In this document: piece after piece, positions 39,079-44,217 of the stretch | How positions within the stretch are numbered: the first letter of the stretch is position 1 | How the letters are laid out: the number at the start of each line of letters is the position of its first letter | Source of the DNA: Candidatus Zixiibacteriota bacterium | GTDB taxonomy: Bacteria > Zixibacteria > MSB-5A5 > RBG-16-43-9 | Length of the DNA stretch: 49,410 bases | Reading direction: 5' to 3' | Assembly (NCBI GenBank): GCA_022865345.1 | Contig: JALHSU010000087.1 | Location: 1 to 49,410 of the forward strand | Program-made: the position numbers and the translations under genes | The notes under the pieces: model-generated | What the model saw: the letters and a program-made list of their open reading frames with translations, nothing else | Told to the model about the DNA's origin: nothing | Databases searched by the model: none

Positions 39079-39819
39079 TCATTTCTTTTCCGCCTCCCCG
39101 GTCATAGGCACAAACCGGACCGGGATGACGTTTTCCTTTTTAATACCTTTTTCAGTTTTGGTAACCAGGATAAGCTCCTGAAAAAGCTCTCCCACCGGGA
39201 TAACCAATCTTCCTCCAATCTTCAACTGGTCAACCAGAGGCTGAGGGATATGATCAGGAGCGGCAGTTACGATTATCCCGTCAAATGGGGAATGCTCTTT
39301 CCATCCCTGGTAACCATCCCCGCACTTGACTGTGATATTCTTATATTCTAATTCCTTCAGAGTACTTTCAGCCTTTTCAGCCAGGAGGCAGATAATCTCA
39401 ATACTGTAAACCTCTTTTGCGATCTCAGCCAGGATGGCTGCCTGATAACCAGAGCCGGTTCCTATTTCCAAAACCTTTTCTTCTCCTTTTAAGCCTAAAA
39501 GCTCGGTCATCAGGGCAACTATGTAAGGCTGGGAAATGGTCTGCCCTTCTCCGATAGGTAAAGGCTCATCTGCATATGCTTCTTCCTGATAGCTCTTAGG
39601 GACAAAAAGATGCCTGGGCACCTTTCTCATCGCTTTTAAAACCAAAGGGTCTTTGACTCCCCGGCTTTCGATCTGGGTTTTTACCATCCAGTCCCTTTTC
39701 TCCTGCATCCTCAGGGAATCTGACTGAGCATTATTCTCCATAGAAGAGTCCTTTTCCTCAGTTTTCCCGCAGCTAAACACAAGAAACATGAGGATTACAA
39801 GTAATACCTGCCATTTCAT
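39079..39819 (-). CDS. pcm: Protein-L-isoaspartate O-methyltransferase with lipoprotein signal
   Basis: 246 residues. PCMT repairs isoaspartyl residues in aged proteins using S-adenosylmethionine. The catalytic domain is complete: [34 protein letters not shown], motif [18 protein letters not shown], the GDGYQGW segment and FDGIIVTAA. Unusually, it begins with a lipoprotein-like signal peptide (hydrophobic residues 4-16, then LVFSC with C17) and a charged linker. This would place the enzyme outside the cytoplasm, where S-adenosylmethionine is not expected. The downstream genes are PspC/LiaF-like envelope proteins. Confidence 0.9.
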
Positions 39820-40062: not shown

Positions 40063-42211
40063 CTATAACTGGTTCAGAATTTCAGTTTTCTCTTCACCAA
40101 GTTCTGAAATTTCAATCATCTTATCCTTGTGTACGAAAATAACCCTCTCGCCTAAAGAGAGATACTTCTCGAATTCCGGAAATCTTTTAGCTAACTCGAA
40201 ATAGGCCGGGCTGAATCTCTGAATTTTTATAATCTTAAGTGTACTGTCATATTGACTATCCACCCAAAGGTTACCTTCTTTAAAGAAAGTCTTGTTTCCT
40301 GCCTGGATTATCTGAGACACCTTTCTATCTTTACCTGAATGGTCAATATATGCTTCCGGAGCCTTCAAGGCGCTTTGCATCCCGAGCAGATTCTTGGATT
40401 GATAAACCGCACCTGATCCGGTCTCAGTACGTAGAGCAGCGGTTACACCCTTCTTGATTATCGGCCTCTCAGCTGTGACCGTTATCGGGCGATCTGCATC
40501 TACCAGAAAAGAAGTATATTGGGTTATTATGCCATATCTCTTGGAGAGGCGGACAATTTCGTCGATTAATTCTGTGCTTTGGCCGTAAAGTCTCATCTGA
40601 TCAACCAAATATCCGATTCTCCTGGTTGCCCAGAGCCGGGGGATGAAGCTATTTTTTTCCTCAGGTGAAAAGTTTACCTGATAGGAGTAGGTCTGCTTTT
40701 TTTCACCAGCATATCCGCTTAAAAAGGCTGAGGAACTTCCTTCTCCTTCATATTTTCCCAAAACCAGCACCTGAGAGCCGCTGAATAGGTCAGGCAATTC
40801 CTTTGGATAAAGTTCAAAGGTTTTAACTCCTGGGAACTTCAGACTTAACTCCGATAGTATAGGATTTGAGATCTTTTTAAAGAAATTGGATACTTTTACC
40901 TCGATGTCTTCGTTCGGAGTCACATAATCAGAAGTGGCATGATTTTCCTGAGCCAGTCTGTCCAGAAAATGAGTGTTCACATCGAAGCCCACGCCGAAGA
41001 CAAAAATTCTGTTGGAGATATTTCTCTCTTTCACATTCTCCAGTATCCTCTTGATGTCTGTTAATCCAACAGTGGGCAAGCCATCAGTCAGAAATACGAT
41101 ATATGAAGTTTTGTCTTCAGGGTTTAAGTTTTTCAGACCTTCCAAAAGGGCAGAATTGATATCTGTTCCTCCGTCCGCTTCGCAATTCCGGATGAACTTT
41201 ATGCCGGAATTAATATTCTCCCTCGTAGCTGGCAGAAGTCTTTCCCTGAAAGGCTTGACCTGGTCATCGAAATCAATCAGATTAAAGCTGTCTCCGGGAT
41301 TCAGGCTGTTCAAGCAGAATATCAAGGCGTTCTTAGCCTGTTCTATCTTCTTACCCTGCATACTGCCTGAAGTATCCAGAATAAAGACTACTCTTTTTCT
41401 GATGAACCTGTCAGGTCTCTGGATTTTGGGAGAGAAAAGAGCCATAAAGAAGTTCCCTTCTTTTTTATCCTGATAACTCAAGAGATTGAAGCCCACTTCC
41501 TTATCTGACAGCGAGTAATAGAGGACAAAATCCTTATTCGGTCTGGCGTTCTCCTCAAAATAGGAGACTTTTACCCTGTGGTCGCTTTCTTTATCAATTT
41601 TTATATCCTGAGTCGGAGAGTAGACATTCTTAATCGGAATATCTGAATTGATGACCAGATCGATTTGCACATTTTCCAGAGGGTTCTGGGAGAATTTCTC
41701 AGTAGAGAGAGAATATTTATATTCGCAGAGGTTATTTTCAGATTTCAAAACCTGAGAGTATCCTAATTTTATCCTGGTCTCGCCGTGAGCAGGTATGGGA
41801 TAGACCCGTGCCCTGAACATCCCCTGATTATAATACTCCAACAGAGCCGGGTCTTTTCTTCTCCGAACTATATCCTCATAGATTCTCCTCGCTCTGTCTC
41901 TGTCCAGAATCTCACCTTTCAGTTCCTCACCTCCTATAAACATCGAGAATTTGGAAATAGAGGCATCGAGAGGCAACGGAAAGATGTAGGTTCCTTCAAG
42001 GTCGCGAGGATAATCATTTCTAAAAACCTGATCAACTGTGGTCTGAGCCACCTGGTTATCGATTTTGATTTCTACGTGATGATATTTGATCGAGAGGTAG
42101 GGCGGGAGTGGCTCATCCGGATGACGAGGAATCGGGACGATAAAGCCATCCGCTAAGGTTTTGGAGTAAAGAATGAGGAAGATGCTGAGTATAAGGCTTA
42201 GTTTTTTTCAT
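40063..42211 (-). CDS. VIT/VWA-domain secreted protein, frameshifted in an A7 run at the start
   Basis: About 715 residues after correction. A continuous frame of 662 codons begins only at GTG 42051, inside the VIT domain. Upstream, the same frame encodes a clear signal peptide (KKLSLILSIFLILYSKTLA) and the first VIT strand, but it ends at a TGA. ATG 42211, with an ideal ribosome site at 42216-42222, is out of frame by one base because seven A follow it where six are needed. Later domains: VIT (YIFPLPLDASISKF), VWA with FILDTSGSMQGKKI, DGGTDINSALLEGL and VFLTDGLPT, then a C-terminal region containing ITVTAERPIIKKGVTAALRT (40426-40485), shared with the adjacent anti-sigma factor. Confidence 0.85.
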
Positions 42212-42215
42212 AATT

Positions 42216-42222
42216 CCCTCCT
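42216..42222 (-). promoter_or_regulatory. Ribosome-binding site that fixes the VWA start
   Basis: On the minus strand AGGAGGG lies four bases before ATG 42211. The ATG is followed by AAAAAAA. This strong site argues that 42211 is the real start despite the frame conflict. Confidence 0.8.
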
Positions 42223-42279
42223 GGTTAAAGGTTTTCTAATTTCTCTACAAATCAAGGAAAGAATTATTCTCGAATTTTT

Positions 42280-43527
42280 TTATTTTTTCTTTAGAGCCTC
42301 TAATTCAAAGATGTTTTTAGTCAGCTCATCCTTCATCTTCTGGTCAGTTACCGAGTCCTTATATTGATTCAGTAGTTTTATCCCTGCCTGACGTAAGGGC
42401 TCATCGCTTGTCTTCAGGAAAAGAAGCTCATAAGCAACTTTAATCTGCGAAAAACCTTCAGGAGTCCATTCTGATACAGGCTTCTTTTCAAAATATTCTT
42501 TCCAGGAAGAAATTACCTTTTTTAATGTATCTGCTTCTACCAGTGTATCTTTGTCAGTTAAAGCACGCACCCACTCCGTATCGACCTTATAATATCTTAC
42601 GCTTTCGGCTGGGTATAACCCCTCATCCCTTTTCGCCGCCGCAGGGGCTCGAAGTGTGGTTGTTACTGCAGTGCGTTTATCTTCTGGCGACTTCTGAACA
42701 TAAAGGATGGTTTCTGGTAAGCTTGGAGGCTTCATAGCCATTTCTGCTTGATTAACAGTCCTTAAATTTGCTGTGACTCCTTTTTCAATTTTCGGTCTTT
42801 CAGCAGTGACAGTTATACTTTTCTTGAGTTCCGAAGTTTTACTTTCTCCAGCTCCCTTTTCTTTTTCCCCCTGAGCTTTCTCTCCGGCCAAAGAAATCAC
42901 AGATTCAGATGGAGCTTGTAACTCAGCGTTTTTTTCTGCCTGCACAGACGATATGGATTCAGAAGGAGTGGAAATCTGCAAAGCTTTCTGTTCAGCGATG
43001 GGAGGCTTTGGCTTGACGAAAGTGGTTTCCTTGGCAGGCTTTTTAGTCTGGAGAGATTCCTTTACAGCCGGGGTCTGTAACTCAGGCTTCTGCTGAACTG
43101 GAATAGATAAAGCCTTTTCTATTCTTTCAGATCTGACCCGCTCTAATTCTTTTCCTTTGTAATCCCAGTAGAGCTTTCCGATTATGAAGACTAAAAGGAT
43201 CGAGGCGATTCCAGCGGCGATTCTCAATTTTACCGGCGAGTAGAAGAAAAAAGATTCCCATCCAGATTTGAGCCTTGACCAGATAGATTTTCTCCTTCTG
43301 AGGATTATCTCATTCCTTACTCTTTCAGCAAAGGTTTTCCAGTAATCAGGGGAAAGCTCTGGCAGTCTTACACCCTTAGCACTTTCTTCAAGCTTTTTAA
43401 GTTCCTGCAGTTTTGCCGCGCAGTTTTGACAGGTCAAAAGATGCTCCTCTATCTCTTTTGATTCTCCCGCATCTAATTCCCCATCAAAATAAAGATGAAT
43501 TAGCTTGTCAAAATCCTTACACTTCAA
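42280..43527 (-). CDS. Zinc-finger anti-sigma factor with long periplasmic region (module 2)
   Basis: About 415 residues. I prefer TTG 43527, giving MKCKDFDKL behind AAGGTGG, over GTG 43536. The zinc finger has C3, H29, C33 and C36 (EHLLTCQNCAAKL), at the same positions as in module 1. One membrane segment spans about 102-120. The periplasmic part is low-complexity (Pro/Glu/Lys/Ser, about 130-235), then carries SITVTAERPKIEKGVTANLR (42760-42816 region), and ends in a helical domain of about 110 residues. The 20-residue motif is nearly identical in the downstream VWA protein. It should hold the ECF sigma factor encoded just upstream. Confidence 0.87.
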   Translation of the reverse strand: MKCKDFDKLIHLYFDGELDAGESKEIEEHLLTCQNCAAKLQELKKLEESAKGVRLPELSPDYWKTFAERVRNEIILRRRKSIWSRLKSGWESFFFYSPVKLRIAAGIASILLVFIIGKLYWDYKGKELERVRSERIEKALSIPVQQKPELQTPAVKESLQTKKPAKETTFVKPKPPIAEQKALQISTPSESISSVQAEKNAELQAPSESVISLAGEKAQGEKEKGAGESKTSELKKSITVTAERPKIEKGVTANLRTVNQAEMAMKPPSLPETILYVQKSPEDKRTAVTTTLRAPAAAKRDEGLYPAESVRYYKVDTEWVRALTDKDTLVEADTLKKVISSWKEYFEKKPVSEWTPEGFSQIKVAYELLFLKTSDEPLRQAGIKLLNQYKDSVTDQKMKDELTKNIFELEALKKK

Positions 43528-43542
43528 TTTTCCCACCTTCTT

Positions 43543-44136
43543 TCATAGATAACCTTTTAAACTCTTTTGCAGTCTTTCTCTTGCCCGGAAGAGCCGGGAC
43601 ATCACAGTCCCTTTGGAGATTTTCAGGGTATTGGCGATTTCCTCATAACTTAATTCCTCATACGTTTTGAGGATAAAGACCGCCCTGAATTCAGCTGGCA
43701 GGTGATCTATCTCGTTTTCTATTTTTCTGGCCAGCTCATCCCTGACTAACTGCTCTGAGGCATCGGCTTTCCCCGTATCCTCTACAAGCTCCAAGGAGCC
43801 CTGGGGTAGCTGGCTTTCTGAGATGGTGAATTTCTGTCTTTTGAGATAGTTTATAGTCAGATTCATACAAATCTTATAAACCCAGGCGCAAAAGCTATGA
43901 CCCTCCTTAAAAGACTTAAGAGAATAAAATGCCTTGATAAAAGATTCCTGAGCCAGATCATCTGCCGCCTCATGCGATCTGGTCATCCGCAAAGCCAGAT
44001 AATAGAACTTCTTCTGGTATCTTTCTACCAGCCTTTCAAAGGAATAGATATCCCCCTTTTTCGCCCTGGCAATGAGCTTATCCTCAGTCTCCTCAGCTCC
44101 GGTTTTGAATTTTTTCTCCACCATCCGGACTTCCAT
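43543..44136 (-). CDS. ECF-type RNA polymerase sigma factor (module 2)
   Basis: About 197 residues from ATG 44136; TTG 44139 and ATG 44124 are alternatives, and none has a strong ribosome site. Region 2 is FERLVERYQKKFYYLALRMT, AADDLAQESFIKAFYSLKSF and FCAWVYKICMNLTINYLKR. Region 4 is LPAEFRAVFILKTYEELSYEEIANTL and GTVMSRLFRARERLQKSL. The anti-sigma gene follows at once, and the VIT/VWA gene comes after that. holA lies 80 bases upstream, with an inverted GGGAATTTTTCCC in between. Confidence 0.93.
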   Translation of the reverse strand: MEVRMVEKKFKTGAEETEDKLIARAKKGDIYSFERLVERYQKKFYYLALRMTRSHEAADDLAQESFIKAFYSLKSFKEGHSFCAWVYKICMNLTINYLKRQKFTISESQLPQGSLELVEDTGKADASEQLVRDELARKIENEIDHLPAEFRAVFILKTYEELSYEEIANTLKISKGTVMSRLFRARERLQKSLKGYL

Positions 44137-44217
44137 CAACTTAAATACACTTCGAGATGGGAAAAATTCCCGATTTTCCTGAATTTATATTTTATTTCGG
44201 TATAGATATTTCAAGGT

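Follow-up and report, generated by a model that had tools for sequence, protein, structure and literature searches.

Plug pieces of the cell's own TonB-dependent receptor in an ECF anti-sigma factor and a VIT/VWA protein of Zixibacteria

Comparison of protein sequences strongly supports the view that a 20-residue motif common to an anti-sigma factor and a neighboring VIT/VWA protein of a Candidatus Zixiibacteriota bacterium was captured from the plug of one of the cell's own TonB-dependent receptors (here called TBDR-A), of which it comprises the TonB box and the stretch after it. This suggests that the regulators sense TBDR-A by imitating part of it. What is new here is that the regulator itself carries the copy of the receptor's plug, and that this copy is matched to the lineage; in the open-licence literature, no earlier account was found of anti-sigma or VWA proteins that contain parts of a plug. 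If functional, the arrangement would amount to sensing of an outer-membrane receptor by mimicry, would point to a periplasmic reader of plugs, and would assign a function to the VIT/VWA and YfbK-type VWA proteins, which are widely distributed but little understood. Since the pieces match the lineage, sequence alone also suffices to assign the partner receptor.

Results and Discussion

Genes of the sigma system

The window (the whole stretch of DNA that was analyzed, 49,410 nucleotides) contains the following genes.

43543..44139, minus strand: ECF sigma factor (Sigma70_r2 and Sigma70_r4_2 by Pfam)
42280..43536, minus strand: anti-sigma factor with a cytoplasmic zf-HC2 domain, one transmembrane stretch, a long and variable periplasmic linker and a conserved C-terminal region (Pfam and alignment)
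40063..42211, minus strand: VIT/VWA protein with a signal peptide (VIT and VWA by Pfam; stop near 40063)
39079-39819, minus strand: PCMT-family gene, after the VWA gene

The zf-HC2 domain occupies residues 6–40 of the anti-sigma factor (Pfam). With this domain, a transmembrane stretch (read from the sequence) and a gene adjoining that of an ECF sigma factor, the protein belongs to the zf-HC2 class of ECF anti-sigma factors. The start of the VWA gene was corrected to the ATG at 42211, which is provided with a ribosome-binding site and lies upstream of the GTG at 42051. A run of A (42205-42211) after this ATG shifts the frame of the signal peptide by one base in the assembly; the sister species have an intact frame, and the shift is either an assembly error or a recent mutation. 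The VWA protein is ∼90% identical to that of RBG_16_43_9 and of C20_concoct.bin.73, the nearest named records. It shares the VIT and VWA architecture of TIGR03788 (marine sortase target) but, at 323.6 bits, scores below the cut-off of that family (551.65 bits). Proteins 45–50% identical to it are encoded in metagenome-assembled genomes labeled Altiarchaeales/Altiarchaeota (L141, L142, L144, and L149), either through inter-domain transfer or through contamination. PCMT-like sequence also follows the VWA gene in G003 and in G015 and G031, which are from distant families. In the genome numbering used here, G000 is the window's genome, G001 and G002 are sister species, and G003 is a sister genus; the compared genomes are mostly metagenome assemblies, and the kinship labels are the tool's own.

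The shared motif

Within the two proteins, four stretches are of importance.

42757..42816, minus strand: motif ITVTAERPKIEKGVTANLRT in the periplasmic region of the anti-sigma factor, corresponding to the TonB box of TBDR-A and the plug residues after it
40426..40485, minus strand: motif ITVTAERPIIKKGVTAALRT in the VWA protein (profile match, codon comparison)
42673..42816, minus strand: extended plug-like segment of 48 aa in the anti-sigma factor (constraint and receptor match)
40327..40512, minus strand: low-confidence stretch of the VWA model, residues 514–575 (AlphaFold2, pLDDT < 50), holding the motif between folded parts

The two copies are identical at 17 of 20 residues, exactly where and to the degree that a first-pass annotation of this DNA had reported, and share 70% of their nucleotides. 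The same codon is used at 5 of the 17 common residues, which is in the range of what is expected with random synonymous sites (∼5–6). The annotation's further claim, that the synonymous codons differ and that the motif is not a recent DNA copy, therefore holds for the window's pair, and recent DNA duplication is ruled out as its origin. When the VWA protein was used as the query, the anti-sigma factor of each of the two sister species was retrieved via the motif alone (E ∼4e-4); together with the receptor matches of the anti-sigma factor as a query (see below), this places the likeness beyond chance. In the structural model of the VWA protein (AlphaFold2, 23 sequences, mean pLDDT 78), residues 514–575 constitute the sole long low-confidence stretch, and the motif is, according to this model, within a disordered loop. 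The corresponding region of the anti-sigma factor is variable.

Identity with the plug start of TBDR-A

TBDR-A (L277, 1115 aa, encoded in the same genome) consists of CarboxypepD_reg, Plug, and barrel, and has no STN domain (Pfam). Its plug starts with TTVTAERPMIEKGVTANLRT, which is identical to the anti-sigma copy at 18 of 20 positions, and it is the one further protein of the genome in which VTAERP occurs in related context. With the anti-sigma factor alone as the query, TBDR-A was found in four genomes over ∼43 residues at 49–53% identity (E between 2e-7 and 1e-6); in the anti-sigma factor, the similarity extends over ∼45 residues. This search was independent of the plug-start profile (A2), to which the anti-sigma and VWA proteins had given one row each. 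At E up to 0.1, four proteins of the own genome matched this profile, namely TBDR-A, a second receptor (897 aa), and the two proteins with the motif. In the alignment of the profile with the colicin I receptor, the match begins at residue 8, the site of that receptor's TonB box. By homology (18/20 and the alignment with the colicin I receptor), the motif is a segment of a TonB-dependent receptor plug, and the statement in the first-pass annotation that such stretches open the plugs of TonB receptors is borne out by the anti-sigma query, the profile search, and the colicin I receptor alignment.

The same annotation had named occurrence in many unrelated secreted proteins, as a generic linker, as evidence that would speak against a shared partner; in the own genome, the profile found, at the cut-off given above, nothing beyond the two receptors and the two proteins with the motif. 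Although the motif is short, chance or a generic secreted-protein linker is hardly credible as its source, considering these four matches and the shuffle tests described below, which reached the floor of 300 shuffles; the genome census and the shuffles rule both out. With E cut-offs of 0.05 and 0.01, the Pfam Plug model (PF07715) had no match in anti-sigma or VIT/VWA proteins, which contain fragments only; this may be the reason why the plug pieces have gone unannotated so far. In YfbK-type VWA proteins, Plug is recognized by Pfam.

The TBDR-A gene lies on a contig other than that of the sigma operon, beside the lipoate ligase gene (lplA). It is followed by a gene for a large secreted protein in a cluster that is conserved across families and usually located beside lplA (L338, L336, L337, and L277); in G026 and G035, the cluster also includes a gene for a PorV-like outer-membrane protein.

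Recurrence of plug pieces in related genomes

The search for the motif in related genomes that the first-pass annotation had proposed gave a divided result: the exact 20-mer is limited to one family, and other pieces of the plug are present in other families. In the sister species, both proteins have retained the motif. In G003, it is present in the VWA protein but absent from the anti-sigma factor, which contains a later part of the plug instead (LKTQTGFV...IHVKAGRAGEV). The anti-sigma factors of family f11 (G018 and G033) carry a piece of ∼60 aa, from the TonB box to RGGR, with extra partial copies in G018; those of G042 (f13) and G116 (f10) also contain plug pieces. Among the VIT/VWA tails, that of G018 bears KKSAIRKEIATSRVKLAPEEEKAL, that of G008 MVQKDVTAAVRT, and that of G033 the plug end TLNGGFDAQYGNNASGV; the tail of G035 has two plug pieces in reversed order and that of G040 the plug end followed by the plug start. 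Outside the class, a 30-residue stretch of the VIT/VWA protein of G133 is identical to its own receptor at 29 positions, Latescibacterota G134 shows a weaker match to its own receptor, and the VWA tail of G136 (Gemmatimonadota) gave no significant plug match. The orthologous tails of families f2, f6, f8, f12, f15, and most of f3 lack a plug piece and served as internal controls; the piece is, therefore, not essential to the operon.

A census of ∼30 related genomes, in which frames cut by the locus end were counted as receptors by length and plug and not individually checked, assigned the complete non-receptor frames with the plug start to anti-sigma factors of the zf-HC2 class and to VWA proteins of the VIT/VWA and YfbK types, with two exceptions, both short CarboxypepD_reg-plug frames beside YfbK genes. 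Two weak matches (G018 C41 and G033 C1; EAVVVAAKRTPVGKG) were dismissed because the matched stretch resembles the N-terminus of a thiolase and had a poor score with the plug model. The two short frames (L329 3670-4305 and L331 4432-4986) come from unrelated families, consist of CarboxypepD_reg and the plug start, are cut off within the plug, and lie directly upstream of the genes for YfbK-type VWA proteins.

Which part of the plug is present bears on the view that ITVTAERP is a working TonB box, by which energized TonB would pull the anti-sigma factor (and the VWA protein) and so couple proton-motive force to sigma release. The genome has genes for TonB, ExbD, and TolA-like proteins, including an ExbD-ExbD-TonB set, the profile matches the plug of the colicin I receptor at its TonB-box start, and the TonB-box part is kept in the anti-sigma factors of f1 and f11 and in the VWA protein of G035. 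For the VWA side, a lead comes from the proposal, made in 2025, that vWA-fold proteins act as TonB-like force transducers (PMC12204202). However, the anti-sigma factors of G003 and G116 and the VWA proteins of G033, G040, and G054 have later plug parts only, without the TonB box; the conserved stretch of f1 extends ∼40 residues beyond the box; and a TonB box as such would not require the family-specific residues beyond it to be matched. Docking to TonB is accordingly rated unlikely, and plug mimicry is favored over a reading based on TonB only, as the latter fails for the lineages with later plug parts. The property common to all pieces is that each stems from the plug of one receptor. The differences between the pieces of the various lineages give no indication of a single fixed binding partner and, like the tails that lack a piece, were counted against mimicry.

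Match to each genome's own receptor

The tails were scored by local alignment against plugs from the same genome and from other families, with 300 shuffles that preserved composition only; the receptors of each genome were sampled by profile, not exhaustively. The score against the own plug exceeded that against every other-family genome for 7 of ∼15 anti-sigma factors (G000, G001, G002, G018, G033, G042, and G116) and for ∼11 of 28 VIT/VWA proteins (G000-G003, G007 [weak], G008, G033, G035, G040, G050, and G054). These matches were at the floor of the shuffles (p 0.003; G007, p 0.010). The score was 220 for the anti-sigma factor of G033 (compared with at most 106 elsewhere), 221 for that of G018 (compared with 130), and 212 for G133 (compared with 114); for both G133 and G134, the own receptor surpassed all Zixibacteria genomes. 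The VWA proteins of G005 and G026 and the anti-sigma factor of G003 were significant against shuffles, but the own receptor was not the closest. For the G003 anti-sigma factor, this was counted against mimicry, its piece being plug-like all the same.

When full TBDR-A proteins from nine genomes were used for scoring, significant matches were confined to the plug, with none in CarboxypepD_reg or the barrel. TBDR-A was usually the best match among the sampled receptors of each genome, and lies beside lplA in most genomes; for G008, the plug pieces gave a near tie among receptors, and the full protein favored TBDR-A. Thus, the plug fragment follows the syntenic TBDR-A across lineages.

These data also bear on an ancient fusion, in which a whole CarboxypepD_reg/plug would once have been part of the anti-sigma and VWA proteins and have eroded in each lineage while co-evolving with the receptor. 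In its favor are YfbK-type VWA proteins (PF12034, PF12450, and PF07715) of the same class, which still have CarboxypepD_reg, plug start, and VWA. Like the VIT/VWA proteins, they are VWA proteins with a receptor plug start; their plug part, however, is situated N-terminally, with CarboxypepD_reg before it as in receptors, whereas that of the VIT/VWA proteins is in a loop near the C-terminus. CarboxypepD_reg gave no match in the anti-sigma or VIT/VWA proteins, the pieces are permuted and repeated, they are close to the own receptor and not to a common ancestral sequence, and G040 retains the trace of a DNA copy (see below), all of which makes such a fusion quite unlikely.

Selection and age of the pieces

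Between the anti-sigma factors of G000 and G001, the 48-aa piece is 95% identical, and its flanks are 50% and 18% identical. Compared with the own receptor, identical codons were as frequent as expected at random in G000 (7 of 18; 6.0 expected), G018 (14 of 42; 17.5), G033 (9 of 23; 9.0), G035 (9 of 20; 10.7), and G133 (19 of 29; 17.1), although 72–97% of the residues of these pieces are kept. As the synonymous sites are mostly randomized and the protein sequence is held, most pieces are old and selected. In G040, 16 of 19 codons are identical (9.0 expected, P 0.0004); this piece looks like a recent DNA copy, judged by its codons, and its excess indicates that at least one capture has left a trace at the DNA level.

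Such a trace would be expected of recurrent neutral capture, whereby weakly constrained, disordered tails gain short, functionless pieces of an abundant gene through ectopic copying. The diversity of the pieces, their permuted order in G035 and G040, and their repetition in G018 fit the same idea. Neutral capture is possible for the youngest case. As a general explanation it is improbable, given the island of 95% identity amid poorly conserved flanks, the retention of 23 of 24 (G033) and 29 of 30 (G133) residues with codon identity at random expectation, and the confinement of the pieces to few protein classes and to the plug.

Promoters

Two sites resembling ECF promoters were found in the window.

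44146..44171, minus strand: GGGAAT-N15-GTGTA before the sigma gene, conserved in G000-G003
42246..42271, minus strand: GAGAAT-N15-TTGTA before the VWA gene, with a similar site in the sister species

Sites of this kind (GGGAAT-N15-TTGTA-like, with slight variation) precede the sigma and VWA genes throughout G000-G003 and are rare in those genomes. The promoter-like site that it shares with the sigma operon makes the VWA gene a probable target of the sigma factor and supports the earlier assignment of the VWA protein to the sigma system. A regulon search with GGGAAT-N15-TTGTAK gave no convincing downstream genes beyond the sigma and VWA promoters; one site that is conserved in G001 and G002 is situated ∼200 bases before a gene for an ABC transporter ATPase, inside another reading frame. 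No ECF site was seen before TBDR-A, where a sigma70-like promoter (TTGACA-N17-TATAAT-like) is located. This promoter, together with the lack of linkage to the sigma operon, was counted against mimicry.

Proposed mechanism and comparison with known systems

Chances appear even that the ECF sigma system reads the state of TBDR-A via plug-mimic peptides, with the VWA protein as feedback. In this mechanism, the captured pieces would act as plug mimics, and a periplasmic factor that binds the TBDR-A plug (an empty barrel, a chaperone, a protease, an RseB-like guard, or TonB) would also bind the tail of the anti-sigma factor. The sigma factor would thereby respond to the state of TBDR-A and activate its own operon and the VWA gene, and the VWA protein, carrying the same plug piece, would bind either that periplasmic factor or the receptor and so complete the loop. 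More tentative, and rather less likely than not, is the broader idea that parts of the plug of the own receptor are captured time and again by anti-sigma and VWA proteins as self-mimics, which would read its plugged, assembled, or engaged state and be renewed as the receptor diverges. A precedent exists in cell-surface signaling, where a piece of the receptor contacts the anti-sigma factor and controls its proteolysis (PMC11637429). The first-pass annotation had envisaged a shared docking element for a TonB-dependent receptor: the link to one receptor, own and syntenic, stands, but because the element copies the receptor's own plug, "mimic" fits better than "docking site". Its proposal as a whole is thus supported in part.

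In known receptor-to-sigma signaling, the receptor has an STN domain dedicated to this purpose. The FecA/FecR/FecI and FoxA/FoxR/FoxI systems share with the present one an ECF sigma factor, a membrane anti-sigma factor encoded next to it, and a TonB-dependent receptor as the likely partner, and periplasmic contact controls the stability of the anti-sigma factor in the known case (PMC11637429). In contrast to FecR-type systems, only zf-HC2 and no FecR domain was found in the anti-sigma factor (Pfam), TBDR-A has CarboxypepD_reg and no N-terminal STN (Pfam), its gene is on another contig and not linked to the sigma operon, and the plug piece is carried by the anti-sigma factor itself. The proposed logic also resembles that of the sigmaE/RseA/RseB/DegS pathway of E. 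coli, in that segments of outer-membrane proteins would compete in the periplasm and control the anti-sigma factor. There, the C-terminal end of porins acts on DegS; here, the anti-sigma factor itself contains a segment of the plug.

A protease with a TonB C-terminal domain was considered as the reader of the plug and rejected, as the large TonB_C protein of this genome (L360 813-2825, 670 aa) is, by inspection, TPR lipoprotein-like and not a protease. In the related genomes, TonB_C matches are present in frames of similar size.
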